Source of the DNA: Pseudomonadota bacterium
GTDB lineage: Bacteria > Pseudomonadota > Gammaproteobacteria > Acidiferrobacterales > Acidiferrobacteraceae
Length of the DNA: 64,000 nucleotides
Assembly (NCBI GenBank): GCA_021819245.1
Contig: JAKARI010000011.1
Location: 1 to 64,000, forward strand
Reading direction: 5' to 3'
The position numbers and the translations under genes are program-made. Positions within the stretch are counted from its first letter, which is position 1, and each line of letters opens with the position of its first letter. This document shows positions 9,186 to 41,739 of this stretch, in pieces. Under the pieces are notes generated by a model that did not search any database, was not told where the DNA came from, and worked only from the letters and a program-made list of their open reading frames with translations.

Positions 9186-10533
9186 CGGCCTTGAGGGCGG
9201 CAAGCAGGCGGCCATGCAGACCCGCGAAGCCGCCGTTGCTCATGACGAGGATATGATCCCCGGGCCGGGCCTCGGCCACGAGGCCCGCGATCAGGGCCTC
9301 GTGGCTTGCGTAGACTTTCGCGTGGTGGTCCGGGCGGGCGACCGCCGCCGCGACGTCCCAGCCGATGTCCGGGGGGGCGTAGATATAGGCCGCATCGGCC
9401 AGGGCCAGCGACGGACCCAAGGTCTTGCGGTGCACCCCCTGGCGCATCGTATTGGAGCGCGGCTCCAGCACCGCCAGCACCCGATGCGGCGCGACCCGCG
9501 CCTTGAGCGCCTCCAGGGTGGCCGCGATGGCGGTCGGGTGGTGGGCGAAGTCATCATAGACCGTGATGCCGCGCGCGCTCCCAGACACCTCGAGACGTCT
9601 TTTCACCCCGCCGAATGTGGCCAGGGCCTGCAAGGCGGTCTCGGCCGGGACCCCGGCAAAGCGCGCCGCGGCCAGTGCGGCGAGCGCGTTTGCGACATTG
9701 TGACGGCCGGCGAGCGACCACTGCACGGCGCCGATCTCATGCCCATTGAGGCTCACCGCAAACGCGCCGCCGTCGGCTGACACAAGCCGCGCCTCCCAGC
9801 CGCCGGGGCGCCCGAAGTACTCCACCGGTGTCCAGGCGCCGGCGGCGATGACGTCGGCCAATGCCGCATCGGCGCCGTTGGCGACGATCAGGCCGTTACC
9901 GGGCACGGTGCGCAGAAGATGCTGAAATTGCCGCGAGATCGCCGCGAGATCCGGGTAGATGTCGGCATGATCATACTCGAGATTGTTGAGCACCACGGCC
10001 CGCGGCCGATAGTGGACGAACTTGGCGCGCTTGTCGAAGAACGCGGTGTCATACTCGTCGGCCTCGACGACGAAGAAGCGCGATGCCGTGAGCCGTGCCG
10101 ATACCCCGAAGTCCTGCGGCACGCCGCCGATCAGAAACCCGGGCTCGAGCCCGGCCTGCTCGAGGATCCACGCCACGAGGCTTGTGACCGTGGTCTTGCC
10201 GTGGGTACCGGCTATGGCGATGACGAAGCGCTCGCGCAGCACGTGTTCGGCGAGCCACTGCGGACCCGAGACATAGGGGATGCCGGCATTCAGGACCTCT
10301 TCGACCGCCGGATTGCCGCGCGACAGGGCGTTGCCGATGACCACGAGGTCCGGGGCGGGTGCCGGCAGGGCCTCGTAGCCCTCGGTGACGGCGATGCCGC
10401 TTTCCCGCAGCTGGTCGCTCATCGGCGGGTAGACCCCGCGATCGGAGCCGGTCACGGCATAGCCCGCGGCCCGGGCGAGGAGCGCAAGCCCCCCCATGAA
10501 CGTCCCGCCGATACCAAGAATATGGATACGCAT
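9175..10533 (-). CDS. mpl: UDP-N-acetylmuramate:L-alanyl-gamma-D-glutamyl-meso-diaminopimelate ligase
   Basis: 452 residues from the ATG at 10533, the usual Mpl length. The N-terminus MRIHILGIGGTFMGGLALLA is diagnostic for Mpl rather than MurC, and the ATP loop GTHGKTT is at residues 109-115, followed by VEADEYDTAFFDKR and the Mur ligase motifs HNVANALAA and DDFAHHPTAI. The enzyme joins recovered murein tripeptide to UDP-MurNAc in the cytoplasm and so recycles cell-wall peptide. It is transcribed away from rnd, with about 200 bases between the two starts. Confidence 0.95.
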   Translation of the reverse strand: MRIHILGIGGTFMGGLALLARAAGYAVTGSDRGVYPPMSDQLRESGIAVTEGYEALPAPAPDLVVIGNALSRGNPAVEEVLNAGIPYVSGPQWLAEHVLRERFVIAIAGTHGKTTVTSLVAWILEQAGLEPGFLIGGVPQDFGVSARLTASRFFVVEADEYDTAFFDKRAKFVHYRPRAVVLNNLEYDHADIYPDLAAISRQFQHLLRTVPGNGLIVANGADAALADVIAAGAWTPVEYFGRPGGWEARLVSADGGAFAVSLNGHEIGAVQWSLAGRHNVANALAALAAARFAGVPAETALQALATFGGVKRRLEVSGSARGITVYDDFAHHPTAIAATLEALKARVAPHRVLAVLEPRSNTMRQGVHRKTLGPSLALADAAYIYAPPDIGWDVAAAVARPDHHAKVYASHEALIAGLVAEARPGDHILVMSNGGFAGLHGRLLAALKAATS

Positions 10534-10737
10534 CACGGTGTCGCCGAGGAATGACGGGCCATGGCGTCCCGCCGCGGGGGACGCGGCGTGTCGCCGCCCG
10601 GGCGCTTGTGGGCCGCGCGCCGCTTCGAGGGGCGCGCACAGACATATTTGCAGGCGGGGGGCTGGGACATGGGAGACCGATGATAAACCGCTTTGCGGCT
10701 GGAACAAAACGCCCCGTCCCTTTAGACTGGCACGCCC

Positions 10738-11844
10738 ATGACCGAACTTTTGCATGACGCCTCGGCGCTGGCCTCATGGGGCGCCGCGATCGTCGCCTCT
10801 CCCTGGACGGGCCTCGACACCGAATTCTTTCGCGAACGCACCTATTACGCCAAATTGTGTCTGGTTCAGGTCGCGACCCCGGACGCGATCACGCTCGTCG
10901 ATCCCTTGCATCTCGATATCAGGCCGCTTGGCGCGGCCCTCGCGGGCCCCGGCGTCAAGATCCTGCATGCCGGCCGGCAGGATCTCGAACTGCTTTTGCA
11001 GGAGACGGGGGTTCTGCCCGCGCCCCTGTTCGATACCCAGATCGCGGCGGCGCTCGCCGGTTACGATGAGCAGATCGGTTATGCGAATCTGGTCGCCGAG
11101 GTGCTCAAGGTAAATCTCGCCAAGGATGCCACGCGCACCGATTGGGCGGCGCGCCCGTTGAGCGATCGCCAACTTGCCTATGCCCAGGATGATGTGCGCT
11201 ATCTCGAGGCCCTGCGCCAGGCCCTCCTTGCGGAACTCGATCGTCTGGGGCGCGTGGCGTGGCTTACCGAGGACTGCGCGTCCTTAAACGACCCCGCGCA
11301 CTATGACTTTTCGCTTACGCAATTGGTGCGCCGTCATCGTCAGGGCGCGAACCTGCCGATCGCCGCGCAAGGCAGGTTCCAGGCCCTGCTCCTGTGGCGC
11401 GAAGAGGCCGCCCGTCAGGCCAACCTGCCGCGCGCCTGGGTGATTGCAGATGCCGTGCTGGTCGATCTCGCCTTGCGCCCCCCTAAAAACCGCGCGGACT
11501 TCGGTCAGAGGCCAGGCCTCGACGACCGGCAGATCCGCCGCCTGGGCGATCAACTCATCAGCGTCATTGAGGCGGCCCCGGAGCGCCCTGCCCACCCGTG
11601 GCCGGCCGCGCGCCTTGCCCCCGAGGATGAGCGTCCGTACCAGGCCCTGGCGGCGCTCGTCGATGCCCGTGCGCAGGCCCTGGGAATCGGGGCCGGCGTC
11701 ATAGGGTCGCGCCGGATGCTCAAGGAGATCGCGCAAGGCGCGCCACCCCAAGAACTCACCCGGGGCTGGCGTGCCGAGGTCCTCGGGACGGAGGGCGACC
11801 GGCTGCTTGCCGAGATCGCGAAGCGCCATGCCGACGCTGCGTGA
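10738..11844 (+). CDS. rnd: Ribonuclease D
   Basis: 368 residues. The DEDDy exonuclease motifs are present: LDTEF (Asp27, Glu29), HAGRQDLE, and YAQDDVRYL with the catalytic Tyr and Asp. A C-terminal helical HRDC region covers roughly residues 210-290. RNase D trims the 3' ends of tRNA precursors and other small RNAs from the 3' side. It is the first gene of a pair with yihA, whose start lies inside its last codons. Confidence 0.95.
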   Translation: MTELLHDASALASWGAAIVASPWTGLDTEFFRERTYYAKLCLVQVATPDAITLVDPLHLDIRPLGAALAGPGVKILHAGRQDLELLLQETGVLPAPLFDTQIAAALAGYDEQIGYANLVAEVLKVNLAKDATRTDWAARPLSDRQLAYAQDDVRYLEALRQALLAELDRLGRVAWLTEDCASLNDPAHYDFSLTQLVRRHRQGANLPIAAQGRFQALLLWREEAARQANLPRAWVIADAVLVDLALRPPKNRADFGQRPGLDDRQIRRLGDQLISVIEAAPERPAHPWPAARLAPEDERPYQALAALVDARAQALGIGAGVIGSRRMLKEIAQGAPPQELTRGWRAEVLGTEGDRLLAEIAKRHADAA

Positions 11845-12421
11845 CGCGGTCTTTGTGCTCGGCGCGCCGCGTGTGCGCGATCTGCCCCCCGATACCGGTG
11901 TCGAGATCGCCTTCGCGGGCCGTTCGAACGCCGGCAAGTCCAGCGCCCTCAATGCCCTTACCGGACAAAACGGCCTGGCGCGCGTGAGCAAGACCCCGGG
12001 ACGCACCCAGCAGCTCAATGTCTTTGCGCTGTCGCCCGGGCATCGCCTCGTGGACCTGCCGGGCTACGGTTATGCCAAGGTGCCGCAGGCCCTGCGCCAC
12101 GCCTTTCTCGCACTGACGACCGATTATTTTCAGATACGCCGCAGTCTCAAGGGCCTCGTGCTGGTGGCCGACATCCGCCAGGGCCTAAAAGGCGAAGACC
12201 ATGCCCTCCTCGAGGGCCGTGCCGATATCCCCGTGCTCGTGCTTTTGTCGAAGGCCGACAAGATCACTCGGGGCGAGCGCCAGCACCGCGCGCGCGAGCT
12301 CGCACAAGGCGCCCCCGAGACCGCCACTCTTCTGCCGTTCTCGGCGCTCGACGGCACGGGGGTGGAAGAGGCGCGTCACTGGGTCCTGCAATCTCTGGGG
12401 CTTCCCCGGGACGCCTGCTGA
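11828..12421 (+). CDS. yihA: Ribosome-biogenesis GTP-binding protein YihA/EngB
   Basis: 197 residues. The start is the ATG at 11828, overlapping the rnd stop by 17 bases. GTPase motifs: G1 GRSNAGKSS (31-39), the EngB hallmark SKTPGRTQ, G3 DLPGYGYA, G4 LSKADK and G5-like FSALDGTG. EngB is an essential GTPase that assists assembly of the 50S ribosomal subunit. Length and motif order match the family. Confidence 0.95.
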   Translation: MPTLRDAVFVLGAPRVRDLPPDTGVEIAFAGRSNAGKSSALNALTGQNGLARVSKTPGRTQQLNVFALSPGHRLVDLPGYGYAKVPQALRHAFLALTTDYFQIRRSLKGLVLVADIRQGLKGEDHALLEGRADIPVLVLLSKADKITRGERQHRARELAQGAPETATLLPFSALDGTGVEEARHWVLQSLGLPRDAC

Positions 12422-12549
12422 TCGCGCGAGCGCCGGGGCCCCGGCCCGGGCGCGCGCAGAGTGTCTCCAGGGGCAGGCGAGGCGGGCTGCCCTGCGCGTC
12501 TGGCCACTCATGATCTAGACTCGAGACAGGCCTTGGGAGGGTGAAGGGC

Positions 12550-13344
12550 ATGTCGATTCGCAGTCGCGCGGCGCAAGCCGCTATCACCTGGCTCAATGCC
12601 GAGCGACCCCGCCCGGCGCCCGTGGAGGAGCCGGGGACCCATGAGGCCTTGATGGGCACGGTCCAACCTGGGGATGTGCTGCTCATGGAGGGCATGACCC
12701 GCGTGGGCGGCATGATCAAGACCATCGCGCAGAGCACCTGGTCGCATGCCGCCTTGTGCGTAAGCGGGGAGGGCGGGCCGCCGCCCGGCGTGGACCCGGA
12801 CATCCTGCGCCCGTTCGTTTCCGATCCGGCCGGCGCCCCGGTGGTGCTCGAGGCCCTGTTGGGCCAGGGGGTGATCCTCACATCCCTGGCGCAGTATCGT
12901 TCCACGCGCCTGCGCCTCTGCCGTCCCCGCCATCTGCTCCCTGCCGATAGGGCCGCCGTTGTCGCCTATGCCCTCGCGCGCTTAGGTGACGACTATGGCC
13001 TGCGCGGGCTCGTTGATCTTGCGCGCCTGGCACTCCCCTGGCCCTTCATACCGTGGCGCCTGCGCCCGGCGCTCTTGGCCCATCGGGCCGGTCCACACAC
13101 CCGCACGGTGTGTTCCGTGCTCATCGCCGAGGCGTTCGCATCGGTCGGCTATCCGATTCGCCCCAAGCACGCTCATGGTCCATCGCCCCAGACGGCAGAC
13201 ATCCTCCCCGCGCTCCCGAAAGATTTCGATCTTTCGCCATTTTTCGATGTCATAAAGCCCGCCGCTATGCCTAGTGGCTACCGCACCCGCCAGCAAGAAA
13301 AGGCTGGTATCGGCCACCCGCCATTCGCGCCCGACTCCGCCTAA
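12550..13344 (+). CDS. YiiX/YebB-like permuted NlpC/P60 hydrolase
   Basis: 264 residues from the ATG at 12550, nine bases after GGGAGG; the GTG at 12541 is less likely. Features of the YiiX/YaeF permuted papain-like family: an N-terminal GDVLLMEGMTRVGGMI, the catalytic-type His in WSHAALCV (His66), and the Cys in TRTVCSVLIAEAF preceded by LGDDYGLRGL. Such proteins are thought to be amidases or acyl hydrolases acting on lipids or peptides. No signal peptide is seen. It lies 41 bases upstream of the giant beta-oxidation fusion gene in the same direction and may be co-transcribed with it. Confidence 0.75.
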   Translation: MSIRSRAAQAAITWLNAERPRPAPVEEPGTHEALMGTVQPGDVLLMEGMTRVGGMIKTIAQSTWSHAALCVSGEGGPPPGVDPDILRPFVSDPAGAPVVLEALLGQGVILTSLAQYRSTRLRLCRPRHLLPADRAAVVAYALARLGDDYGLRGLVDLARLALPWPFIPWRLRPALLAHRAGPHTRTVCSVLIAEAFASVGYPIRPKHAHGPSPQTADILPALPKDFDLSPFFDVIKPAAMPSGYRTRQQEKAGIGHPPFAPDSA

Positions 13345-13385
13345 CAGCGCCATAAAGCCGGTCTATACTGGAGGCAGGAGGGGGC

Positions 13386-16300
13386 ATGGGCCAGGGACCG
13401 GAGGTCATCATCGTGGGGGCGGGACCGGCCGGCATCAGCGCCGCATTGAAGCTTGCGCGCGCCGGTGTGCGGGTCCTGGTGCTCGAAGGCGGGGAATACG
13501 CCGGGGCCGAGAACTGGTCGGGCGGGGTCTTCTGCGCCGAGGCCCTGGTGCGCGAAGATGTCCTGGGGGCCCATGCGTGGGCGCGTGCCCCGCGCGAGCG
13601 GCGCGTCGTCGCGCGCTCGCTCCTTCTCCACGGCGGTGACGGGTGCGCGGGCTTTGAGGCGCGCGCCGTCACCGGCAACGATTATGGCGAGGCCTGGACG
13701 GTGCTGCGTCCCCGGCTCGACCGGTATCTTGCCTCCTGCGCCATCGCGCACGGGGCCACACTCTTGCCGCGCACGAGCGCAAGCGGCCTGCGGTTTGCCG
13801 GCGGGCGGGTGGTGGGGGTCGATACCGCGCGCGGACCGATCGAGGCGCCGGTGGTGTTTCTGGCCGAGGGCGATGCGGCCGGCCTGCTGTCGCGCGCCGG
13901 GCTCGAGCGCCCGGTGGTGCGTTATGCCCAGGGCATCAAGGCCGTGTTCGCGCTGCCCGCCTCGACCATCGAGGCGCGATTTGGGGTGCGCCCAGACGAG
14001 GGGGTGGCGCAGGAGTGGCTCTTGCGCAACGGTCCGTTCAAGGGCCGGACCGCGGCGCTCGACATGAGCGGCTTCCTGTATACGAACCGGGATACCCTGT
14101 CGGTGGGGCTCGTGCTTCCGCTGGCATCGCTCGCCGATCAAGGCCCGGCCGACCATCCGCGGCTCCTGCGCCGGTTTCTTGCCCTGCCAGAGATCGCGGC
14201 CTGGCTCGCAGGGTCCACGCAGATCGCCTATGGCGCCAAGGTGATTCGCGCCGGCGGCCTGCGCGAGGGGGCGGCCTGCGCCTATGAGGGGCTGGCCATC
14301 GGCGGGGCCTCCCTGGGGCTCGGGCTCGAGTTCCCCTATCCGAACTTCATGGGGCCTGCGGCGATGTCGGGGGTGGCATTCGCGGACGCCGTGCTCGATC
14401 TGCGCGCCCGCCGGGATTATTCGGCAGCCGCCCTGGCCGAGGCCTATGGCGGGCGGTTGCGCCAGAGTCCCGACTATGACAATGCACGGTTTGCCGCGGC
14501 CTGGCCCGAGGCCTTGCATGCCAGCCCGCTCGTCTTCGAGCACCTCCCGGCGCTGGTCGGGGCGCTCGTCTCTGATGGCGCCGCGCAGTCGCGCGCCTGC
14601 ACGCGCGCCGCGCTCGCACTCCTGCGCGACCGCGCCAGCATGAAGGTCGTAGCGTCCCTGCCGCGGCCGGCGCCCGCGCCGGGCTGCCCGCCCCTTGCCG
14701 TGACCTTTTTGCTGGGACGCAAAGGCGCGCTCGTGCCGGTGGCGGCTGCGCCGGGTCTTGCGCCCCTGGCCCGCGCCATCGGGTATGCCTACGGGCGGGG
14801 CCTGCCGCGTCTTGAGACCCGCCTGGCCGCGGCCTTCTCGGAGCGTCTCTGGGCCTTTGCCGCGCGCATGTCGGCCCGCGCCGCGGGGCTTGCGATCGCC
14901 GGGGCATGCGGTTTTGCCAAAGACGGCGTGCAGCTCCTTGCGGCCGGCCGCTCGGCTGTTATGCGCTCACCCTTTTACCGCCACGAAGGGCTTGCCCGCG
15001 CGCGCAGTGCTTGGGACCACGAACCGGCCGATTCCCCCATGGATTGGCTCTCGCCCCTGGCACGCCCGGTCCCTGATCTGCGCCACATCCGCGTCCCGCG
15101 CGATCTTCCCGCGCTTGATGCCCGCCGCCTGCGCCGCGTGTGTCCGGCGGCGGTCTACGGTCCCGGCAGTCCCGCAGGCGGCGCGTCCGTGACCTACGAG
15201 AATTGCATCAAATGTGAATCGTGCCGATTGGCGGCCCCCGCAGTCGACTGGCAGCGGACCAGCACCCATCGCCTGATCTACGAACTCCCGGGCGCGTGCC
15301 GCACGGGACCCGACGGCAGCGTGCGCGGCGACATCGATCTTAAGCCCGACGCGCCGCCCGAGAACGCGGCCCTGGAGCGGCTTATCGCGCTCCTCGCCTC
15401 GCGGCCGACGGCCCCGGGCCTCGAGTTTCGCGCACGCATCCGCCAGGAACTGGCGGGCGTCCGACTCGATGGCCATGAGCGCCTGGCGGCGCTTTGCGAA
15501 CGAGGGGCCTATGGCGCGCTCTCCGAGGCGCTTGCCGGGAGGCTCCCCTGGCGCGTGCGATCGCCGGGCGCGCCGGGCGAGGCGTTCCTGCGCCGGGTCC
15601 TGCAGGATCGCGCTGCCGTCTTGTTTCCGCCAACGCGCCTTACCGCGCTCGCCTCGGGATGGACCGCCCGGGACCGCGCCGCCCTCATGCCGCTCGTGCA
15701 TGCCCGCGACCAGACCCCTGAGGACATCATCGCCGCGCTCGCTGCGCACGATCCCGGGCTTGGGTTCGTGGCCATGCACCACCTGCTCGCCGAGGCGCGG
15801 CTCGGCCGCCGCCTGGCGCGCCTGAGCGCCCCTCTGTTTCGTGAGGCCGACGGCCTGTCTGCGTGGTACCCCGATGTCGGTGCCGATGTCGCCGGTCACC
15901 AGGGCGCCATCGATGGCACCAAGGCCCTGCGCGCCGCCGGCCTCGATGCGGCACGCTGCGTGCGCGTGCCGGCCGCAGACAAGCCCTTGTTTGCGATCGA
16001 CCCGATTTTCGCCCGTTACTATACGGCCCTTATGGAAGGATATGGCGAGACGCTGTGCGCGCGCGCGGATGCCCACGCCCGCTCGCGCATTCAGTTCGCG
16101 GGCGCCTATCGCGATCGCGAGGGGTCCGATGCCGTGTTCAAGTTCGGCGCCGTCAAGCGCCTGCTCGCGATCATCGCCTATGCGCTCGCGCTCGCCCGCC
16201 GCCTGCGGGCGGTCTGCGACCAGGAGCCGCGCCGGGCCGTGGCGCTCCTTCAGGCGCGTTTCGGGGTCTCATTGGACGGCGTGGCCTGGTGCGCGGGCCA

Positions 16301-19300
16301 GGTCTTTGGGGGCATCGCCTACTCCGAGGATGACATCCTCAGCCGCCGCTATCGCGATGCCATGGTCCTTACGCAATGGCCGGCCACCAGACCCGCGGAT
16401 ATCGCACGCCGCTTCGAAGACGCGCTCTGGGCCGAGCCTGAGGACGCCGCGGAGGCCGTGTTTCTGCGCCACGCCCTAAGCGAAGACACGGCGCCTTCGG
16501 CGCTCGTCCCTGTGCGCTGCCGTCTCCCCATAACCCCCAGGCCCACCGGCCTTTTTGTCCACCAAAGCGGAAGTTTCCTCTTCGGGCGCCTGCTTAGCCC
16601 GGCGCAGGCCTTCGTGCCCGAGGACTTTCTCGCAGACCCCGCGCTGCGGGGCACGCGCGCGCAGGTCCTGCATCTCGTGCGCGCGGGATTTCGTGCCCCC
16701 GGCGGCATCGCCTATGGCCGCTACCTCGATCGCCATCATGCCGTGCCGGCATCCGATGTCGAACGCCTCAAGGCCTGTGCGGCATTCGCCACCGTGATCC
16801 CGAAAAACCTTGGAGGGCGGGGGGCGAGCAAGGCCGAGTATGCCGTGCTCGCGGGTCTGCTCATGGCGCGCGTCGATCCTTCCGTGGGCCTCCTGGTCAT
16901 GGCCAGCACCAGCATCGGCACCATGCCCGTGCTGCTCGCGCTGGAAAAGGACCTCCCGCGGCTTGCCGCAGAGCTCGACGCGCTGTCCCGGGGGTCGATC
17001 GCGGACCTGCGCCGGGGCGCCGGCAGGCTCACCGCGCTCTGCGAGCGCCCGCGCCCGGGGGCCATCCGCAAGACCCTCGAGGCCATGGGCGCGCTCATCA
17101 AGGACTGCTTTCTGAAACCCGGGTCGGCCCTGAAATATCTGGCGCGCGATGCGCTCGAGGCGTTCCAGGCCCTGGTGGCCACCGCCCGGACGCGCGACCT
17201 CGACGCCTTGGCCGTCTCCGCAAAGGCCTTTGCCGCTACCCTCGCCACGCTTACCGAGCGGCTTGCAAAAGAACGCGTGCAGTTGCCGGTGCGTGTCGCG
17301 GCCCATGAGCGCTTCCTGCGCTTCCTCGCGCACGGACAGATCAGCGCGTTTGCGCTGACCGAGCCCTCCGCCGGTTCCGATACCGGGGCGCTTGCGGCCC
17401 GGGCGCAGCCCGTGCGCGCGGCCTTGAGCCCCGCCGAGGCCGGCCTGTGGCGATTTGCCACGGCCCAGGGCCCACGCCTCCTTCTCGATGAACGGCGCCT
17501 CGATTTCACGGCGCCGGAGGTCCGCTACCGGCTACCCGACGGCAGGCAGGCGACCCTCGATGACAGCGTCTGGGGCGCGGGGCCCCCGCCGGCGCGCCGG
17601 CGCGTGGTGCTCGACGCGCAGGAGATCTATGAGTACGACGACATGGGGGTCCCCTTGGATACCCCGGATGGCCCGGTCTATGAGTATTTCGCGCTATCGG
17701 GCACCAAGATGTGGATCAGCAACGGCTCGATCGCCGACCGCTATTGCCTCTATGCCCAAGGCCCGCTGGGCGAGACCGGGTTCATGGTCGAGCGCCGCTC
17801 CGAGGGACTTTCCGTGGGCCAGGATGAGCGTAAGCTCGGCCAGCGCGCCTCGCCGACCAATGAGCTCGCCCTGTCGTCCGTGCGGGTATGCGCAAGCCGT
17901 GTCCTGGGGTTCGAGGGGCATGGGCAGGTGAGCGCCCTGGAGACCTTGAGTGTCGGGCGCGGCGGGCTCGTGGTCGGCGCCGCCAGCCTCATCGAGCGGC
18001 TCCTGGCCGATTATGGCAGGCGGCTCGATCCGCAGTCGCCCGCGCGCGCCTTGGCCACCTACGAATGCGAGCGGATTCGGGCCTTGGGCGCGCGCCTCGT
18101 GGGCCTCATGGACCGCGCCGATCTCGCGCACGGCGATTTTCGTATCGAGGCGGCGCTGTCCAAATTCCTGGCCTCCGAGGGGCTTCACCGCGTGCTGCGC
18201 GCCTTTGAGCAAGATTGCGGCCCATCGGCCGCGGCCGTGACCGAGTCCATCGAGAAGTGGCGGCGCGACGCGCGCATCCTCAATATTTACGAGGGCACGA
18301 ACGAGGTTCAGAGGTTCCTGGTCCTCAAGGACCTGCCGGCCCTGTTTACGCGCTTTGCCACGATCGAGGCGACCGGTAGCCAAGGTCTCGATCAGGCGTT
18401 GCGGGCATTTGGCGATTTCTTGCGCCCGCGGCTTGCCGGCCTTGAGGCGCGCATAGCCGGCGACGGCGACAGCCAGATCCTGTGGTTTCCGGTGGTCGAT
18501 TGGGCAGCCGAGCTCTATGCCTGGGCGGTGCAGGTCGAGCGCCGGCAGGCGCTTGTCGCGCGCGGCGCAGGGCCTAAGGCGCAGGCGGCCGTGGAGGCGA
18601 TCGAAGCGGCCTGCGAGCAGGCGGTGGCATCGCGCGCGCGTGCGGCCTCTGCCGTATTCGCACAGGCGCAGGCCTATGAGGAGGCGGTGGCCGCGCTCGC
18701 CAATCGCCGTGCCCTGGACGCGGCCGCCCCGGCATCGGCCTGGGGCCCGGGGCTGCGCGGCCATGTGCTCGTCCTGGTGCGCGACCTTTATAACGCGGAC
18801 GGGCGCGATGTGCGCCTCGATGACGAAGACCTCGCGGTCCTGGATCAGGTCCTCGCGGCCTGCGACCGCGATGCCGGGTTAAGCGCCACGGCGCTCGTGG
18901 TGACGGCCGCGCCCTGCCCAGACCACATACAGCGGCTGCGCGCCGCCGGGGTAGGGGTCAGGGCGGTGGTCACAGGCGGGGTCCCCGACCCCACGGCCCT
19001 GGCGGCCGTGGCCGCGGCCCTGCGCCCCGATCTGATTCTGGCCGGCACGCATGATCCGCTTGGCCTCGCGGCCCTGGCCGGCGCCTTGCATACCGTAATG
19101 GTCGACGGCGTCACCGGCCTTACCGGGGCCGGGGCGCGCGGCTATTTGCTGATGCGCGGGCCAATCCGGCGACGTTTCGTGAGTTATCGAAGGCTCGTGA
19201 TCGCAAGCGCCCACCTGCCGGCGACCGGGCGCAGTGACGATTTTTCTGCGGCCGCCTGGCTTGCGACGCTTAAAACCGCGCCCCCCGAAGAACGCATCGC

Positions 19301-20390
19301 CGGCACGGTCGTGACCCTAGGCGACCCGGCACCGGTAGCCGCGGCGCCCCCCGGGGACATGGAGTCCCCGCAGGCCCTGGCGGCCTGGCTGTCCGCGCGC
19401 GCGGGCACCGCCCCGGGGCCGGCCGTGCCGGTGGTGCCGGGCCACGCGCTTAAGGCGCCGGTCATGGCGCTTGGCCGCGGCGGGGCGCGGGCACGCGCCT
19501 GCGCCGGTCTTGCGCACGGCCTGGGCCTGGCCGTGGGTGGGGTATGGCTTATGCGCGGCGCGGGCGAATCGCCCCCGGAGGGCCTGGCCGGGTCGCTATT
19601 CCGGGTGCGGGCCACAGGCAGCGACGGGGTCTTGGCGCCGTTTCTCGCGCCTCGTCTGGCGGATGCGTCGTATGTCGTCATGGGCCCCGAGGATGCCGTG
19701 CTCGCGGGCGCGCTGGCCGCGCATCTCGCCTGCCCGATCCTTGTCAACGTGCTCGCTCGCGAGGGTGATGATCTCGTGGGCCTAAGCGGCGCCCGGCGCT
19801 GGCGGACGCAATGCCCGCCGCGCGCCGTGCTGGTGGCGGCCGCGGGGGCTGCGATGGGCGCGCCCGCCGCTGGCTGGGCCGTGTGCACCGTGGAGGATTG
19901 GATGGCCCCGCACGCCCGCCTGGGGGGATTTGCGCGCGCCCTGCGGGGCATGCGTGCCCCGGGTCTTGCGGGTGCCGAGGTGGTGATCGATCTCGGGCTG
20001 GGGGTCGCCGACGAGGCCTTTCTTCAGAGGGGCCTTATGAGACTTAAGGCGCGACTATCGGCTATGATGGGGTGCGAGGTCGCATTCGGCGCGACGCGCA
20101 AGGTCGTGCAAGAAAGCGGGCTTGTGCCGTTTGAGTGCCAGATCGGGCAGACCGGACGATCTGTGGCGCCCCGGCTGCTGCTCGCGCTTGGCGTCTCGGG
20201 GGCGCCGCAGCATCTCGCGGGCATCGCGCTCGATACCGAGATCGTGGCCATCAACCGCGATCCGGAGGCGCCGATCTTCACTATGCGTCCCGGCGGCCGG
20301 CCGGTTGTGCGTTGCGTGGGTGACGCCCGCGCCTGGGTCGAGGCCTTGTTGGCGGCGCTGCCGGAGACGGGGGGCAAGGAGGCGATATGA
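13386..20390 (+). CDS. Giant fusion: ETF-quinone oxidoreductase + FixX + acyl-CoA dehydrogenase + ETF beta/alpha
   Basis: One uninterrupted 2334-residue frame with a strong GGAGGCAGGAGGGG start signal. Segments in order: FixC/ETF-QO-like FAD domain (1 to ~570; dinucleotide fold GAGPAG at 11-16); FixX-like 4Fe-4S module with Cys586 (VCPAAVY) and Cys607, Cys610, Cys613 (CIKCESC); an acyl-CoA-dehydrogenase-like segment ending ~996 (VFGGIAYSEDDILSRRYRDA) without clear catalytic motifs; a full acyl-CoA dehydrogenase (~1080-1700) with FALTEPSAGSD (Glu1326) and the expected catalytic base Glu1636 in IYEGTNEVQR; an ETF-beta-like segment (~1790-1960); and ETF-alpha (~2018-2334) with the FAD site QIGQTGRSVAP (from 2252) and GVSGAPQHLAG. 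These are normally four or five proteins passing electrons from acyl-CoA to quinone. The next gene overlaps by 4 bp. Confidence 0.9.
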   Translation: MGQGPEVIIVGAGPAGISAALKLARAGVRVLVLEGGEYAGAENWSGGVFCAEALVREDVLGAHAWARAPRERRVVARSLLLHGGDGCAGFEARAVTGNDYGEAWTVLRPRLDRYLASCAIAHGATLLPRTSASGLRFAGGRVVGVDTARGPIEAPVVFLAEGDAAGLLSRAGLERPVVRYAQGIKAVFALPASTIEARFGVRPDEGVAQEWLLRNGPFKGRTAALDMSGFLYTNRDTLSVGLVLPLASLADQGPADHPRLLRRFLALPEIAAWLAGSTQIAYGAKVIRAGGLREGAACAYEGLAIGGASLGLGLEFPYPNFMGPAAMSGVAFADAVLDLRARRDYSAAALAEAYGGRLRQSPDYDNARFAAAWPEALHASPLVFEHLPALVGALVSDGAAQSRACTRAALALLRDRASMKVVASLPRPAPAPGCPPLAVTFLLGRKGALVPVAAAPGLAPLARAIGYAYGRGLPRLETRLAAAFSERLWAFAARMSARAAGLAIAGACGFAKDGVQLLAAGRSAVMRSPFYRHEGLARARSAWDHEPADSPMDWLSPLARPVPDLRHIRVPRDLPALDARRLRRVCPAAVYGPGSPAGGASVTYENCIKCESCRLAAPAVDWQRTSTHRLIYELPGACRTGPDGSVRGDIDLKPDAPPENAALERLIALLASRPTAPGLEFRARIRQELAGVRLDGHERLAALCERGAYGALSEALAGRLPWRVRSPGAPGEAFLRRVLQDRAAVLFPPTRLTALASGWTARDRAALMPLVHARDQTPEDIIAALAAHDPGLGFVAMHHLLAEARLGRRLARLSAPLFREADGLSAWYPDVGADVAGHQGAIDGTKALRAAGLDAARCVRVPAADKPLFAIDPIFARYYTALMEGYGETLCARADAHARSRIQFAGAYRDREGSDAVFKFGAVKRLLAIIAYALALARRLRAVCDQEPRRAVALLQARFGVSLDGVAWCAGQVFGGIAYSEDDILSRRYRDAMVLTQWPATRPADIARRFEDALWAEPEDAAEAVFLRHALSEDTAPSALVPVRCRLPITPRPTGLFVHQSGSFLFGRLLSPAQAFVPEDFLADPALRGTRAQVLHLVRAGFRAPGGIAYGRYLDRHHAVPASDVERLKACAAFATVIPKNLGGRGASKAEYAVLAGLLMARVDPSVGLLVMASTSIGTMPVLLALEKDLPRLAAELDALSRGSIADLRRGAGRLTALCERPRPGAIRKTLEAMGALIKDCFLKPGSALKYLARDALEAFQALVATARTRDLDALAVSAKAFAATLATLTERLAKERVQLPVRVAAHERFLRFLAHGQISAFALTEPSAGSDTGALAARAQPVRAALSPAEAGLWRFATAQGPRLLLDERRLDFTAPEVRYRLPDGRQATLDDSVWGAGPPPARRRVVLDAQEIYEYDDMGVPLDTPDGPVYEYFALSGTKMWISNGSIADRYCLYAQGPLGETGFMVERRSEGLSVGQDERKLGQRASPTNELALSSVRVCASRVLGFEGHGQVSALETLSVGRGGLVVGAASLIERLLADYGRRLDPQSPARALATYECERIRALGARLVGLMDRADLAHGDFRIEAALSKFLASEGLHRVLRAFEQDCGPSAAAVTESIEKWRRDARILNIYEGTNEVQRFLVLKDLPALFTRFATIEATGSQGLDQALRAFGDFLRPRLAGLEARIAGDGDSQILWFPVVDWAAELYAWAVQVERRQALVARGAGPKAQAAVEAIEAACEQAVASRARAASAVFAQAQAYEEAVAALANRRALDAAAPASAWGPGLRGHVLVLVRDLYNADGRDVRLDDEDLAVLDQVLAACDRDAGLSATALVVTAAPCPDHIQRLRAAGVGVRAVVTGGVPDPTALAAVAAALRPDLILAGTHDPLGLAALAGALHTVMVDGVTGLTGAGARGYLLMRGPIRRRFVSYRRLVIASAHLPATGRSDDFSAAAWLATLKTAPPEERIAGTVVTLGDPAPVAAAPPGDMESPQALAAWLSARAGTAPGPAVPVVPGHALKAPVMALGRGGARARACAGLAHGLGLAVGGVWLMRGAGESPPEGLAGSLFRVRATGSDGVLAPFLAPRLADASYVVMGPEDAVLAGALAAHLACPILVNVLAREGDDLVGLSGARRWRTQCPPRAVLVAAAGAAMGAPAAGWAVCTVEDWMAPHARLGGFARALRGMRAPGLAGAEVVIDLGLGVADEAFLQRGLMRLKARLSAMMGCEVAFGATRKVVQESGLVPFECQIGQTGRSVAPRLLLALGVSGAPQHLAGIALDTEIVAINRDPEAPIFTMRPGGRPVVRCVGDARAWVEALLAALPETGGKEAI

Positions 20391-21679
20391 GTGCCAGGGT
20401 ATTTATCGTCGACGGTGCGCGCACGCCGTTTCTGAAGGCCCGCGATGAGCCGGGGCCGTTTAGCGCCGCTGATCTCGCGGTCATGGCGGGCCGCGCGCTG
20501 CTCGCGCGCCAGCCGTTTGCCGCCCCGGACCTCGACGAGGTCATTCTCGGCTGTGTCATTGCGAGCCCCGACGAGGCCAATATCGCCCGCATCGTAGGCC
20601 TGCGCCTCGGGACCGGTTTTGCGGTCCCGGCCCACACCGTTCAGCGTAATTGCGCCTCCGGCCTGCAGGCCGTGGCCAGCGCCTATGACCGCATCAGCGC
20701 CGGCTCCGCGCACCTCGTGCTGGCGGGCGGCACGGAGGCCATGAGCCGCGCGCCCATTCAGTGGAACATGGCCATGAGCCGTTGGTTGGCGGGCCTGTAC
20801 CGCGCCAAGACCCTCGGACAGCGGCTTAAGTCGTTCGCCCGCTTTCGGCCAAGCCACTTAAAACCGGTCTTTTCCTTGGTGCGCGGGCTGCGCGACCCCG
20901 TGGTCGGCCTCTCCATGGGGCAGACCGCCGAGATCGTCGCCCACCGCTTCGACATCGGGCGGCTCGCTCAGGACAGCTATGCCCTGCAGAGCCACCAGCG
21001 CGCCGCGCGCGCTCAGGCCGACGGGGTCTTCGAAGGGGAGATCGAGCCCATCTATGGGTCGGAGGCGAACTACTACGGCCAGGATAATGGCGTTCGCACG
21101 GATACCGACCTCGAAAAGCTCGCGCGGTTGCGGCCGGTGTTCGACCGGCCATTCGGAAATGTCACCTCGGGCAACAGCTCGCAGATTACCGATGGCGCGG
21201 CGCTCGTGGTATTGGCCAGCGCCGCGGCCGTCAAGCGCTGGGGGCTCCCGGTATTGGGCGAGATCGTGGACCATGCCTGGGCGGGCGTGGATCCGGCGCA
21301 GATGGGGCTTGGGCCGGTTCATGCCACCGCCCGACTCCTGGCCGCGCATGGGCTTGGCATCGCGGATCTGCACCATGTCGAGCTCAACGAGGCGTTCAGC
21401 GCGCAGGTCCTCGCCTGTCAGGCGGCGTGGGCGAGCCCCGACTATGCCCGCGACGAGCTGGGACTGGAGGCCGCCCCGGGGGCCATCGATGGCGCGCGCC
21501 TGAACCCGCATGGGGGGGCGGTGGCGATCGGACACCCGGTGGGCGCCACGGGCGCACGCCTCGTCTTGCATCTGGCGCGCTCCCTGCGCGACGCCCCCGG
21601 GGCCTTGGGTCTTGCCACGCTCTGCATCGGCGGGGGGCAGGGCGGGGCCATGCTGATCCGTGCAGGGGGTGCGCCATGA
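20387..21679 (+). CDS. Acetyl-CoA acyltransferase (thiolase, FadA/FadI-like)
   Basis: 430 residues, overlapping the fusion gene by ATGA. Thiolase features: nucleophile Cys89 in QRNCASGLQA, GGTEAMSRAP, the His in LNPHGGAVAIGHPVGATGA, and the second Cys in LCIGGGQGGAM. The length and an inserted Arg/Lys-rich loop (about residues 125-160) resemble FadI-type thiolases of the trifunctional complex more than short FadA. It cleaves 3-ketoacyl-CoA with CoA to release acetyl-CoA, the last step of beta-oxidation, and probably pairs with the downstream hydratase/dehydrogenase. Confidence 0.93.
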   Translation: MSARVFIVDGARTPFLKARDEPGPFSAADLAVMAGRALLARQPFAAPDLDEVILGCVIASPDEANIARIVGLRLGTGFAVPAHTVQRNCASGLQAVASAYDRISAGSAHLVLAGGTEAMSRAPIQWNMAMSRWLAGLYRAKTLGQRLKSFARFRPSHLKPVFSLVRGLRDPVVGLSMGQTAEIVAHRFDIGRLAQDSYALQSHQRAARAQADGVFEGEIEPIYGSEANYYGQDNGVRTDTDLEKLARLRPVFDRPFGNVTSGNSSQITDGAALVVLASAAAVKRWGLPVLGEIVDHAWAGVDPAQMGLGPVHATARLLAAHGLGIADLHHVELNEAFSAQVLACQAAWASPDYARDELGLEAAPGAIDGARLNPHGGAVAIGHPVGATGARLVLHLARSLRDAPGALGLATLCIGGGQGGAMLIRAGGAP

Positions 21680-23694
21680 CCAGCAGCTGGACCCTGTCCG
21701 AGTCCGATGATATCGCCGAGCTCGTCTTGAATGTCCCGGACAAGCGCCACAACGTCCTGTCATGGGAGGTGGTGGGCGAGCTCGATCAGGTGCTCGCCAT
21801 CCTCGAGACCCGCTCCTTGCGCGGCCTTGTGATCCGCTCGGGCAAACCCCAGGGCTTTGCGGTGGGCGCCGATGTGCATGAGTTCCGGCGCGTTCTCGAT
21901 GCCGCCCGTGCCGCCGAGCTCACGCGTGCCGGGCAGATGGTCCTGGCGCGCCTGGCGCGGCTGCCCTACCCGTCGGTCGCCATCATCCACGGCCCATGCC
22001 TGGGCGGCGGGCTTGAGCTCGCGCTCGCCTGCAGCTACAGGGTCGCCTGCGACGACGATCACACGAGCCTCGCCCTGCCCGAGGTCAAGCTCGGCATTCA
22101 TCCCGGGTTCGGCGGGACGATCCGGCTCCCGGCCCTCATCGGGCCGCTTCCGGCCTTGTCCATGATGTTGACGGGGCGGGGCCTGACGGCACGCAAGGCG
22201 CACAAGGCCGGCCTGGTGGACGAGTGCGTGCCGCAGCGCTATCTGGACGCCGCCGCGCGCACGCTGCTGCGCGACGTGCCCCCTAAGGGGCGAGCGCCGT
22301 GGTACAAAAAGATCCCCTCGGCCCCATTTCTGCGGCCCTACGTCGGCGCGTATATGCAGCAGCGCCTGAAGGCCAAGGTCGACTGCCGCCACTATCCGGC
22401 CCCCTGCCGCATCGTGTCGTTATGGGCGCGCCAGGGGTCGTTCGAGGCCGAGGCCCTGTCGTGCGCCGAGTTGCTCGTGACCCCGGCAAGCCGGCATCTC
22501 GTCGCCCTGTTCGAGCTCTCCGAGGACCTCAAGCGACGCGCCCGCGCGCACGCCCATGGTATCCGGCACATTCACGTGATCGGGGCCGGGGTCATGGGGG
22601 CCGAGATCGCCGCGTGGGCGACGCTCAAGGGCTTTCAGGTCAGCCTTCAGGATCGTGCGCCGGAGGTGTTGGCGCGCGGGATCAAGCGCGCCCACGGCCT
22701 CTTGGCCGAGCGGCTCAAGGGCCGCGCGGCGGAGGCCGCACGCGACCGTCTGATGCCGGATATGCGCGGCGCGGCGTTGCCGAAGGCCGATCTTGTGATC
22801 GAGGCCATTATCGAGAACCGCGAGGCCAAGCATGCGCTGTTCGCGCAGATCGAGGCACGGGTGCCGGATCGGACGATCATAGCCACCAACACCTCGAGCA
22901 TCCCGCTCGATGATCTCGCCGCGGGCCTATCGGCCCCCGGGCGGCTCGTGGGGCTGCATTTCTTTAATCCTGTTTCCAAGATGCCGCTCATCGAGGTCAT
23001 AGGGGGCATGGCCACCACGCCGACGGCGCTCGCCGCCATGCGCAGCCTCGCGGTGGCCCTCGACCGCCTGCCGGTGGACGTCAAGAGCTCGCCCGGTTTC
23101 CTCGTCAATCGCGTGCTCATGCCTTACCTGCTGGAGGCCGTGGTCCTCGCCGAAGAGGGCGTGGCGCTTGCCGACATCGACGCGGCGGCCGTCGATTTTG
23201 GCATGCCCATGGGCCCGATCGCGCTTGCCGACACGGTCGGGCTCGACATTTGCCTTGCGGTGGCGCAGACCCTGAGCGCCCCCCTGGGCCTGCAGGTGCC
23301 GGATCTGCTTGCGCGCAAGGTCGAGGCCGGATTGCTTGGCAAGAAGTCCGGTCGGGGCTTCTATCACTACCCGCGGCCACGCACCTTTGTGCGGGCCCGC
23401 CCGCCAACCGACCCGGCGATTGGCGAACGGCTCATCATGCGGCTCGTCAATGAGGCCGGGCGCTGTCTGCGCCACGGTATCGTCGCCGGTCCCGACATGG
23501 TGGACATCGGCCTCGTTTATGGCACCGGCTTCGCGCCGTTTCGCGGCGGACCGCTCGGCTACGCCGAGGCCCTGGGGGCCGGCGAGATCGCAAGCCGCCT
23601 GACCGAGCTCGCCGAGCGCTATGGGCCGCGCTTTGCGCCGGATCCCGTATGGTCTCAGGAGGGCGTGCTCGCGCGCCCCCCGCGCGATTTATGA
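21676..23694 (+). CDS. Enoyl-CoA hydratase / 3-hydroxyacyl-CoA dehydrogenase (FadB/FadJ-like)
   Basis: 672 residues, starting at the ATG at 21676 that overlaps the thiolase stop. The N-terminal crotonase half has HGPCLGGGLELALAC and the catalytic-type Glu in ALPEVKLGIHPGFGGT. The NAD-binding half begins near residue 300 with VIGAGVMGAEIA and has NTSSIPL, GLHFFNPVSKMPLIEV and DVKSSPGFLVNR, and the C-terminal dehydrogenase domain is duplicated as usual. It hydrates enoyl-CoA and oxidises the hydroxyacyl-CoA with NAD. It is about 40 residues shorter than E. coli FadB/FadJ. Confidence 0.93.
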   Translation: MTSSWTLSESDDIAELVLNVPDKRHNVLSWEVVGELDQVLAILETRSLRGLVIRSGKPQGFAVGADVHEFRRVLDAARAAELTRAGQMVLARLARLPYPSVAIIHGPCLGGGLELALACSYRVACDDDHTSLALPEVKLGIHPGFGGTIRLPALIGPLPALSMMLTGRGLTARKAHKAGLVDECVPQRYLDAAARTLLRDVPPKGRAPWYKKIPSAPFLRPYVGAYMQQRLKAKVDCRHYPAPCRIVSLWARQGSFEAEALSCAELLVTPASRHLVALFELSEDLKRRARAHAHGIRHIHVIGAGVMGAEIAAWATLKGFQVSLQDRAPEVLARGIKRAHGLLAERLKGRAAEAARDRLMPDMRGAALPKADLVIEAIIENREAKHALFAQIEARVPDRTIIATNTSSIPLDDLAAGLSAPGRLVGLHFFNPVSKMPLIEVIGGMATTPTALAAMRSLAVALDRLPVDVKSSPGFLVNRVLMPYLLEAVVLAEEGVALADIDAAAVDFGMPMGPIALADTVGLDICLAVAQTLSAPLGLQVPDLLARKVEAGLLGKKSGRGFYHYPRPRTFVRARPPTDPAIGERLIMRLVNEAGRCLRHGIVAGPDMVDIGLVYGTGFAPFRGGPLGYAEALGAGEIASRLTELAERYGPRFAPDPVWSQEGVLARPPRDL

Positions 23695-25391
23695 GCGATC
23701 AGGCCAGACCCGGCCCGGCGACGCTCTGGGGCCTTTTGGCGAGCCGTATCGCCGCCACTGGCGACGAGCCCGCCTATCGGGATTATGACGGCGTGCGCTT
23801 TCGCTCATGGACCTGGCGCGATGCCGGCCGTGAGGTGGGGCGGGCCCGGGCGGCGTTCGCGGCGAGCGGATTGCGTCCCGGGGATCGCGTGGGCATTTGC
23901 GCCTATAACACCCCGGAGTGGGTCTTTTGCGATCTCGCGGCGCTCTCGCTCGGGCTTACGGTGGTGCCCTTGTTTTTCAATGATCGCCCGGAAAACATCG
24001 CCTATTGCCTGAAGGACGCAGGCGTGCGCTGGTTGTTCGTGGATCGCCCACCCGCGGCGGAGGTTCTGGATTGCGGCCTTCAGGGCATCGTGAGCTTCAA
24101 GGAGGCGCGCGGGATCGTGTCGTTTGGCGATTGGCTGGCGGCCGCGGATGGCCGGCGGGTCGCCCCCGTCGATCATGATCCGGATGCGCTCGCCACGATC
24201 GTCTATACCTCGGGAACCACCGGCCGGCCCAAGGGCGTCATGTTGAGTCACAAAAACATCCTCGCCAATGTCGGCGCGTTGCTTGTGGCCCTCCCCGAGA
24301 TTGCCGCGCAGAGGCACCGCTTCCTGTCGTTTCTGCCCCTGTCGCACATGTTCGAGCGTACGGTCGGGGAGTATATCGCCATTGCCTTGGGCGCCGAGAC
24401 GTTCTTCTCGCGCGGCATCGCTGAGTTGGGCGAGGACTTAAAGATCGCGCGCCCCACGATCCTCGTGAGCGTGCCCAAGATCTTCGAGCGTATCTACGGC
24501 AAGATGCAGGAGGGGCTCAAGGCCTCGCCACGCCGCCAGCAGCTGGTTGCGCGGGCCGCCGCCGCGGGCCTTGCCGTCACCGAGGGCCGTGCTCAGGGCC
24601 TCGAGCGCCTAAGCGCGCGATTCTACGACCTGTTGGTAGGCCGTGCCGTCCGTCGGCGCCTGGGCGGCAAGCTCCGCTACGTGTTCCTCGGGGGTGCGCC
24701 GGCCTCGCCGCGCCTGCTCGGTTTTTTTACCGGGCTTGGTGTGCGCTTCCTGCAGGGCTATGGGCTGACCGAGACCGCTCCCGTGATCAGCTGTCATCAC
24801 CTCGCTGATCGCGACCTTGCCTCCGTGGGCCGGCCGCTTTCCAATGTCTCATTGCGGTTCATAAATGACGAGATCTGCGTCAAGGGCCCAAGCGTGATGC
24901 AGGGGTACTGGAACCTTCCGGAGGCCACTGCCCAGGCCATGGATGCGGATGGGTATTTTCACACGGGCGACCTCGGGCGGCTTCGCGACGGCCTTTTGTA
25001 CCTGACGGGCCGCGCCAAGGACATTATCGTGCTCTCGAATGGGGAAAAGGTGCCGCCTGCCGACGTCGAACAGGCGATCCTTCAGGATCCGGCCTTCGAG
25101 CATGCCCTGGTCGTAGGCGAGGGCCGCGGGGCCCTGGCCCTGCTTGCGGTCAGCGACATTGACGATGAGCGCGAGCTTCGGGATCGGGCCAATGCCGAGC
25201 TCCACGCCTTTCCCGGATATACCCACATCCGCCATGTATTGCGCGTAAGCGGCCCGTGGACGATCGAAAACGGGTTTCTCACGCCGACCCTAAAGGTTCG
25301 CCGGCAATGGATCGAGGAGCGTTATGCCGCGGCGATCGACGCCCTCTATGCCGCTTCGGACGATGATCGCTCAGGCCATCCGCCCTGCTAG
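23691..25391 (+). CDS. Long-chain acyl-CoA synthetase (FadD-like)
   Basis: 566 residues from the ATG at 23691, overlapping the previous stop. ANL-superfamily motifs: A3 YTSGTTGRPKGVMLSHKN, FLPLSHMFERTVGEY, A5 LQGYGLTETAPV, A7 FHTGDLGRL and A8 LTGRAKDIIVLSNGEKV, with the C-terminal Lys in ENGFLTPTLKVRR. It activates fatty acids with ATP and CoA and so feeds the operon. At 566 residues it is near E. coli FadD and shorter than eukaryotic-like AMP-ligases. It completes a four-gene coupled operon needing only free fatty acid, CoA and quinone. Confidence 0.92.
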   Translation: MSDQARPGPATLWGLLASRIAATGDEPAYRDYDGVRFRSWTWRDAGREVGRARAAFAASGLRPGDRVGICAYNTPEWVFCDLAALSLGLTVVPLFFNDRPENIAYCLKDAGVRWLFVDRPPAAEVLDCGLQGIVSFKEARGIVSFGDWLAAADGRRVAPVDHDPDALATIVYTSGTTGRPKGVMLSHKNILANVGALLVALPEIAAQRHRFLSFLPLSHMFERTVGEYIAIALGAETFFSRGIAELGEDLKIARPTILVSVPKIFERIYGKMQEGLKASPRRQQLVARAAAAGLAVTEGRAQGLERLSARFYDLLVGRAVRRRLGGKLRYVFLGGAPASPRLLGFFTGLGVRFLQGYGLTETAPVISCHHLADRDLASVGRPLSNVSLRFINDEICVKGPSVMQGYWNLPEATAQAMDADGYFHTGDLGRLRDGLLYLTGRAKDIIVLSNGEKVPPADVEQAILQDPAFEHALVVGEGRGALALLAVSDIDDERELRDRANAELHAFPGYTHIRHVLRVSGPWTIENGFLTPTLKVRRQWIEERYAAAIDALYAASDDDRSGHPPC

Positions 25392-30289: not shown

Positions 30290-30361
30290 GCTGCCACCTG
30301 CCTTGCCTCGTGCCCCAGCTATCCTTAAAGTAATAGATTCCCTCAAGCCTTGAGATCGCCC

Positions 30362-32584: not shown

Positions 32585-32585
32585 C

Positions 32586-33959: not shown

Positions 33960-34162
33960 GAAGCGCGCGTTCAGGCCGGAGGGGGTAACGCCACGCGTTC
34001 TTGAGGGCCACCGTGGCAAGCGTCCGCTCCCCCCGCCGCCATCCGCCCTTGCAGGCCAGATCCTCGACCTGACCCCGGCGGGTCCGCTGGGGTTTCGCTC
34101 GGGCCGACCCGGGCTGTCCGAGCACCGGGCCGTGCCGGTGCGCCCCTCATGGGCCCCAGGGC

Positions 34163-34191
34163 TTGCGCGTACCGCGGGTTTTCCTTATAGT
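34163..34191 (+). promoter_or_regulatory. Candidate sigma70-type promoter of rpmE
   Basis: TTGCGC (34163-34168) and TATAGT (34186-34191) are 17 bases apart, about 45 bases ahead of the rpmE start. The 275-base gap between the kinase gene and rpmE contains nothing else recognisable. Confidence 0.5.
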
Positions 34192-34234
34192 TCGCGGTCT
34201 TTGCATACGCACAACGCCCTAGCTGAGGCGCACC

Positions 34235-34444
34235 ATGAAAGCCGACATCCATCCGGAATACCATGTCATCAACGTGACGTGTGCCTGCGGGAACACGTTT
34301 AAGACCGGTTCTACACTGGGTCACGACCTCGCCGTCGAGGTGTGCTCGGTCTGCCACCCGTTTTATACGGGCAAGCAAAAGATCGTCGACAGCACCGGTC
34401 GCGTCGAGAAGTTCCGCCAAAAGTACGGCCTGCGCGGCAAGTAG
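34235..34444 (+). CDS. rpmE: 50S ribosomal protein L31
   Basis: 69 residues, the normal size. It begins [20 protein letters not shown] and has the four zinc ligands of the C+ type: Cys16, Cys18, Cys37 and Cys40 in [17 protein letters not shown] lies six bases before the ATG. L31 binds the central protuberance of the large ribosomal subunit. Malic enzyme follows 14 bases later, probably in the same transcript. Confidence 0.97.
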
Positions 34445-34457
34445 GCGCGCGATCGCA

Positions 34458-41217: not shown

Positions 41218-41739
41218 ACCATCCCTCTCGTTTCTATGGGCGCAGGGCGCCGACACGCAGGAAGACCCGCTGCGTGCCTATTGTTACGCCCCGCATGAGA
41301 TTATTTAACAACGTCATGCCCTCCGGAAGCGCCATTCCCCGGGACAATCCGGTGTGTCGCCCGGCCCCTCCTGCCCAAGCCACGCCCAGTGTAGCATGGC
41401 ACAAGCGGGGGACTTCCATTGCGACATCCCTCAAAATAGCAGTCGCGGCACATCACACGGGCCATGCGCCTGGTGGCGCCGCCCCGGCCGGGTTTTGGGT
41501 TTGCTCGGGCCCTGCCGCGTCGTGATCGGGCCACCCGCTACGCTGGCCCGGCAGGATCGGTGGAGATTGCCTGCCCTTGCTGCGCTTTGGCATACTGCTC
41601 GCAGTGTTTTGCGGCGCCGTCGGATGCGTGGTGGCCCATGCCTAATAAGACGTCGAAATGCAGGGCGGGGCGCTCAGTCCTGGGGGAGGTGCCGTGCTCG
41701 CCGGGGTCGCAAGCGCCCAGCATGTATAGGGCCGCGCGG
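41218..41739. other. Gene-free stretch
   Basis: About 520 bases between the divergent halogenase-like and methyltransferase genes. The methyltransferase frame is open back to 41464, but that part is Arg/Pro/Cys-rich and unlike the family. The start of 41218-41330 is somewhat AT-richer and probably holds promoters. Confidence 0.4.

Follow-up and report, generated by a model that had tools for sequence, protein, structure and literature searches.

The electron transfer flavoprotein (ETF) is the textbook mobile carrier that conveys electrons from many dehydrogenases to the quinone pool. In the canonical system, electrons pass from acyl-CoA to quinone through the FAD of ETF and then through the 4Fe-4S cluster and FAD of ETF:quinone oxidoreductase (ETF-QO), while the FixABCX/EtfABCX route leads from an ETF FAD to a 4Fe-4S cluster, the FixC FAD and quinone. 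In mitochondria and proteobacteria ETF is a free shuttle and ETF-QO (2gmh) a separate protein with an iron-sulfur domain of its own, PF05187; FixABCX/EtfABCX is made of four separate proteins that bifurcate electrons from NADH, as in the solved complex 7koe, which we take to be that of Thermotoga maritima. For FixCX-FixBA two clusters are described (PMC5861303). An acyl-CoA dehydrogenase (ACAD) joined with ETF occurs in CarCDE (6fah) and Bcd-EtfAB, which consist of separate subunits, bifurcate and lack a quinone reductase. ACADs themselves can be divided: according to PMC11153573, the alpha subunit of mycobacterial heteromeric ACADs provides the isoalloxazine site, the Glu and the substrate site and the beta subunit binds the ADP part, and the alpha2beta2 enzymes ChsE4-ChsE5 and ChsE1-ChsE2 act on the cholesterol side chain as separate subunits. 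In VLCAD and methylsuccinyl-CoA dehydrogenase (MCD), a duplicated segment imitates the dimer-dimer interface (PMC5798300).

Here we analysed a window of 64,000 nucleotides (the whole stretch of DNA under study, contig JAKARI010000011.1 of a member of the Acidiferrobacterales), in which one chain combines an ACAD with its putative electron acceptors. The parts are already known; what is new is their assembly, the alpha/beta dehydrogenase inside it and its spread. The initial annotation knew of no full fusion of this kind that had been characterised, and our literature search, which covered open-access PMC text, likewise found no description of an identical architecture.

The reading frame and its redox modules

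The frame at 13386-20390 on the forward strand, as are all its modules, translates into 2334 residues with no internal stop and is preceded by a leader with GGAGG. It encodes, in this order, FixC, FixX-like 4Fe-4S, ACAD1 (truncated), ACAD2 (complete), ETF-beta-like and ETF-alpha modules. We found the coordinates, length, start, Cys586/607/610/613, the SAGSD and YEGTNE motifs and the domain order of the initial annotation all as it had given them, and the modules that it listed are present, but it had overlooked ACAD1 (residues about 741-1010) and the operon. By itself an open frame is weak proof, because the locus has 71% GC, which favours long open frames on the antisense strand too; at one related locus (L023) an open frame of 2350 aa even runs antisense to the fusion (about 9980-17029, minus strand), a high-GC effect. 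A sequencing or assembly artefact fusing neighbouring genes would draw on this property, and yet we regard it as practically impossible and reject it, since 26 genomes carry the fusion as one open frame (one of them, L037/G062, with 17 unread residues) and the modules evolve under purifying selection; the concern that stops had been missed between genes is likewise dispelled by these homologues.

Identity to the window chain is 43-73% within its order and 31-32% in Nitrospirota, and pairwise dN/dS, computed module by module for 5 pairs (one short linker in one pair was uncomputable), was 0.06-0.17 for FixC, 0.03-0.16 for the FeS module, 0.11-0.30 for ACAD1, 0.09-0.19 for ACAD2, 0.23-0.35 for ETF-beta, 0.18-0.32 for ETF-alpha and at most 0.59 for the linkers. 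The frame is genuine and coding, because identity of 31-73% extends along the chain and dN/dS lies below 0.6 in all measured modules, and from these ratios purifying selection acts on each module measured. Conservation is weak in ETF-beta and in the linkers, which vary at about residues 400-580, 640-740 and 1666-1795, and the named cofactor residues do not vary among the 25 intact chains that were aligned, which come from two phyla.

The N-terminal module (residues 1-400; 13386-14585) is a FixC-like ETF:quinone oxidoreductase with the FAD motif GxGPAG. It matches a FixC profile at residues 7-397 and 7koe_C over residues 1-390 (E 1.3e-49), and its FAD residues G11/G13/P14/G16/E34 are kept in 25/25 chains. 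Behind a poorly conserved region (residues 401-580; 14586-15125; dN/dS 0.17-0.46) follows a FixX/ETF-QO-like 4Fe-4S module (residues 581-640; 15126-15305; 7koe_D, E 4.6e-5). The family profile of residues 1-640 finds 7koe_C at 1-390 and, separately, 7koe_D at 562-625 of one solved complex: an FAD-binding FixC fold together with its FixX-like partner. Among the cysteines in the window protein, Cys586, 607, 610 and 613 alone are common to all 25 intact chains (Cys1454 is kept in 23/25) and, judged by their conservation, suffice for one 4Fe-4S cluster.

At the other end of the chain, the ETF-alpha module (residues 2035-2334; 19488-20387) matches PF00766 (E 1.3e-16) and 5ow0_A (E 3.7e-32); its FAD domain (2194-2280) carries QIGQTG, SGAPQH and N.D, with the named residues in 25/25 chains, and the peak 19-residue hydropathy of the window chain, 2.05, also falls within ETF-alpha. 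The preceding ETF-beta-like module (residues about 1796-1990; 18771-19355) has no Pfam match in the window protein and was assigned by similarity to EtfB: its family profile finds 9/9 free EtfB rows tried (8 distinct; E 3e-17 to 3e-13), and Pfam ETF exceeds its cut-off within the fused frame in 13/20 Nitrospirota carriers. A profile of residues 1715-2334 matches ETF-alpha chains, in the best case almost from end to end (1efp_A, 17-303 of 307), and also one ETF-beta chain, 6fah_B (E 1.9e-5); among solved structures, CarD matches the ETF-beta part best. The FixC-like, ACAD and ETF-alpha parts of the initial annotation thus all find curated profiles or solved structures.

What the ETF-beta-like module lacks is the nucleotide-site loop DGD..Q.G, which presumably binds AMP or the bifurcating FAD: it occurs in 0/25 fused chains, so that the fusion combines an ETF-alpha FAD domain with an ETF-beta-like module devoid of this loop. 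Every one of the 9 loci searched yielded a free EtfB row with the loop (8 distinct proteins, as L001 and L043 hold the same one), a count that is not independent, because the pattern by which these rows were picked contained the loop. These observations bear on whether the protein is an electron-bifurcating or confurcating enzyme of the FixABCX/EtfABCX type. The fusion shares FixC and FixX modules and ETF-alpha with that system, and the closest solved relatives of its FixC and FeS modules indeed come from EtfABCX (7koe); it differs in being one chain with a built-in dehydrogenase, in lacking the EtfB loop that the pattern-picked free EtfB proteins possess, and in keeping four invariant cysteines for a single cluster, against the two clusters of FixCX-FixBA (PMC5861303). 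With only four cysteines kept in all 25 chains and the loop missing from 25/25, we set bifurcation aside as very improbable.

Two complementary dehydrogenase halves in one chain

ACAD2 (residues 1061-1665; 16566-18380) has N-terminal, middle and C-terminal domains, the motif TEPxAGSD and the catalytic Glu1636 in IYEGTNE. Its middle and C-terminal domains exceed the Pfam cut-offs (window residues 1434-1648) and are found in 19/19 members at E 0.01, while the N-terminal domain (1113-1183) scores 20.4 and 21.0 bits, just below the cut-off of 22.9, and is found in 14/19 members at E 0.01. ACAD1 (residues about 741-1010; 15606-16415) is a truncated, degenerate ACAD that aligns with the C-terminal domain of free ACADs. 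Pfam does not detect it in the window protein, its single-sequence match to 1buc is weak (E 0.76), and hhalign of A1 against itself returned the trivial self-match alone; searched against no more than 51 frames, its profile reaches one free ACAD at E 1.5e-6 and a second at 1.5e-4, and in six of the 20 Nitrospirota carriers (G063, G065, G069, G075, G084 and G093) the region itself exceeds the PF00441 cut-off.

In human SCAD, the adjacent monomer binds FAD through R297, Q365 and G369, and E392 serves as the catalytic base (PMC13027082), the catalytic Glu of ACADs sitting between helices J and K (PMC5798300). We compared these positions in ACAD1 and ACAD2 of 25 fused chains with seven free ACADs. 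The latter were chosen by profile search of 13 loci, in which the ACAD2 profile found nine and the ACAD1 profile two; L091 and L092 (weak or partial) were omitted from the nine, as were L087-L090, FadE-length frames matched by neither profile. The neighbour-FAD Arg position holds R in 7/7 free ACADs and 25/25 ACAD1 modules and in none of the 25 ACAD2 modules; the Gly position is G in 4/7 free ACADs (A in 3), G in 25/25 ACAD1 and never G in ACAD2 (P in 24, A in 1); and the Gln position is Q in 6/7 free ACADs, 25/25 ACAD1 and 4/25 ACAD2, the window's ACAD2 being one of these four, which is a point against the mechanism proposed below. At the catalytic position the pattern is reversed, with E1636 in 25/25 ACAD2 modules, P (24) or A (1) in ACAD1, and E (4), D (1) or G (2) in the free ACADs. 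The spacing agrees, as Q365 and E392 of SCAD and Q972 and Pro999 of ACAD1 are each 27 residues apart; in the window protein ACAD1 retains R901, F904, Q972, G975 and G976 and has Pro999 at the position of the catalytic Glu.

From these residues, the dehydrogenase comprises two complementary halves, a predicted FAD-ADP-binding half, ACAD1, and a predicted catalytic half, ACAD2. Labour would be divided between them as in ChsE4-ChsE5 and ChsE1-ChsE2 (PMC11153573); unlike the separate subunits of those alpha2beta2 enzymes, the two distinct halves lie in one open frame with their electron acceptors and ACAD1 is truncated. The partial duplication of ACAD helices in one chain also recalls VLCAD and methylsuccinyl-CoA dehydrogenase, from whose extra segment (PMC5798300) ACAD1 differs in keeping the FAD-sharing interface residues. 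We infer that ACAD1 packs on ACAD2 within one chain rather than across two chains. The variable linkers could also be read as the joints of a polyprotein that is cleaved into ordinary ACAD, ETF and FixCX proteins; this seems a far-fetched reading, given that ACAD1 and ACAD2 complement each other in one chain, though cut halves could still associate.

Operon, genome content and distribution of the fusion

On the forward strand, the fusion gene is followed by a thiolase (acetyl-CoA acyltransferase; 20387-21679) whose start overlaps the fusion stop (ATGA), a FadJ-type enoyl-CoA hydratase/3-hydroxyacyl-CoA dehydrogenase (21427-23694; profile match from near 21679) and an AMP-binding acyl-CoA synthetase (23649-25391; profile match). 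This order recurs in 14/14 further loci of the window's order examined, that is in 13 of the 16 other open-frame genomes and in the split copy of G014, the flanks of G010, G026 and G034 being too short. Among four Nitrospirota loci, thiolase and FadJ lie downstream in one (L036), another (L035) ends at the fusion gene, and L037 and L038, with long downstream flanks, revealed no beta-oxidation neighbours by tblastn or in the frames scanned. Elsewhere the window encodes a phosphoketolase-like protein adjoining an SBD_N/NBD_C (sugar-binding, nucleotide-binding) protein and malic enzyme (30350-35720, plus strand), a protein of 953 aa that combines AMP-binding, carrier-protein and acyltransferase domains (35772-38633, minus strand) and an FAD-dependent protein matching a tryptophan halogenase profile (39904-41256, minus strand).

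In the window genome (91% complete), PF00441 is confined to the fusion gene and, in contrast to systems with a canonical ETF-QO, PF05187 has no match anywhere. Its one separate ETF pair with FixC lies on another contig (G000 contig C53:1400-8930; L043), where the free fixABC adjoins a homocitrate synthase-like gene and a GAF/sigma-54 activator; this setting is probably that of nitrogen fixation, with a nif-type free ETF. The possibility that the fusion is a redundant paralogue of a free beta-oxidation ETF was rejected on account of these neighbours.

The full fusion claimed by the initial annotation recurs with the same layout in 19/60 relatives (G001-G014, G021, G026, G030, G034 and G040) and in 19/395 Nitrospirota genomes, the query's own included. 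It is one open frame in 17 genomes of the window's order, counting the window (G008, G013 and G014 are cut at contig ends), and in nine Nitrospirota genomes (2647-2760 residues, G075 being counted from its reported 2690-aa frame). The 20 Nitrospirota carriers, made up of the 19 from the 395-genome sample and G061, were aligned as eight intact chains and three fragments (G061, G075 and G136); nine were left out because of N runs and splitting (G060, G088), an in-frame TAG (G084), a frame break (G387) or as fragments (G064, G079, G093, G097, G143). The TAG of G084 (contig C81, L063), a single one near residue 364, breaks that Nitrospirota copy. A class-wide sample contained the fusion in 2/369 genomes, the window's own and the same-genus G004, and a plasmid search gave no match; absence from a genome may be a gap, because most genomes are drafts.

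Eight fusion relatives (G001, G006, G008, G010, G011, G026, G030 and G040) lack any PF01012 match. Four of them, G006 (93% complete), G026 (99%), G030 (96%) and G040 (90%), have their sole ACAD match (PF00441) within the fusion and yielded no ETF-family match, which supports the earlier proposal of an electron pathway independent of free ETF. Among the 20 Nitrospirota carriers, PF01012 matches occur only inside the fusion in ten, in six of which the same holds for PF00441, and outside it in the other ten. Five relatives in the order (G023, G024, G028, G029 and G032) have a single PF00441 match, located in a FadE-length open frame (817-842 aa), and no PF01012 (ETF) match; G023 and G028 are one-contig genomes.

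Such gene content also bears on the idea of a general electron hub, in which other dehydrogenases would dock on the fused ETF and FixC/FeS modules and the attached ACAD would be one donor among them. Several carriers indeed have extra PF00441 matches (five in all in G009, three in G010), and G010 is without an ETF-family match. We nevertheless consider a hub unlikely, as the fusion gene sits within a beta-oxidation operon and holds the sole PF00441 match in G000, G006, G021, G026, G030, G034 and G040. Some members may also trade electrons with other proteins, because PF00441 matches more than once in 9/14 genomes of the genus (with some of the places listed), and in 9/14, among them that of the window, ETF-family matches occur elsewhere than in the fusion.

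In trees of the FixC part (25 fused and 7 free rows) and the ETF-alpha part (25 fused and 8 free rows), the fused rows of both phyla all fell on the same side of a branch supported at 100/100. A single origin followed by transfer between phyla is therefore favoured and not proven, because long branches were flagged and the free rows represent a few same-order genomes and one Nitrospirota genome.

A predicted acyl-CoA:quinone oxidoreductase with a captive ETF

With the identity and order of the modules, the residues retained and lost, the operon and the missing separate partners in several genomes in hand, we consider it likely that the fusion is a self-contained acyl-CoA:quinone oxidoreductase whose dehydrogenase is of a fused alpha/beta kind. 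The predicted enzyme would carry out the first step of beta-oxidation and hand the electrons on without free ETF. Acyl-CoA supplied by the synthetase of the same operon would be oxidised at one FAD between ACAD2 and ACAD1, forming one active site per chain, to which ACAD2 would contribute the isoalloxazine side, the substrate pocket and the catalytic Glu1636, while Arg901, Gln972 and Gly976 of ACAD1 would grip the ADP part of the FAD. The tethered ETF-alpha FAD domain would accept electrons singly and swing to the 4Fe-4S module, from which they would pass to the FixC FAD and to quinone at the membrane surface, and the enoyl-CoA would continue to FadJ and then to the thiolase. Electrons would in this way be channelled within one chain, as the initial annotation suggested. 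The chain must fold back on itself for this transfer, because FixC is N-terminal and ETF C-terminal. The order of cluster, FixC FAD and quinone would be that of ETF-QO and FixCX, and we infer the occupancy of the cofactor sites, the direction of flow, the domain movement, the membrane contact and the type of quinone. A plain, non-bifurcating route from acyl-CoA through ACAD FAD, ETF-alpha FAD, 4Fe-4S and FixC FAD to quinone appears most likely, because the conserved cysteines provide for one cluster and the EtfB loop is missing.

More likely than not, the fusion represents a respiratory enzyme of a new class, in which a single chain would act as acyl-CoA:quinone oxidoreductase by means of an internal alpha/beta dehydrogenase and an ETF domain that is held captive and needs no shuttle. 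Such an enzyme would have formed once, would be common to Acidiferrobacterales and Nitrospirota and would replace separate ACAD, EtfA, EtfB, FixC and FixX proteins. One dehydrogenase split into complementary halves of one chain would show clearly how labour can be divided once a duplication has taken place, and the fusion would provide a system of fixed stoichiometry for the study of ETF domain motion. Moreover, with donor, ETF and quinone reductase in one chain, the sole such equipment found in some genomes, the necessity of ETF diffusion becomes testable.
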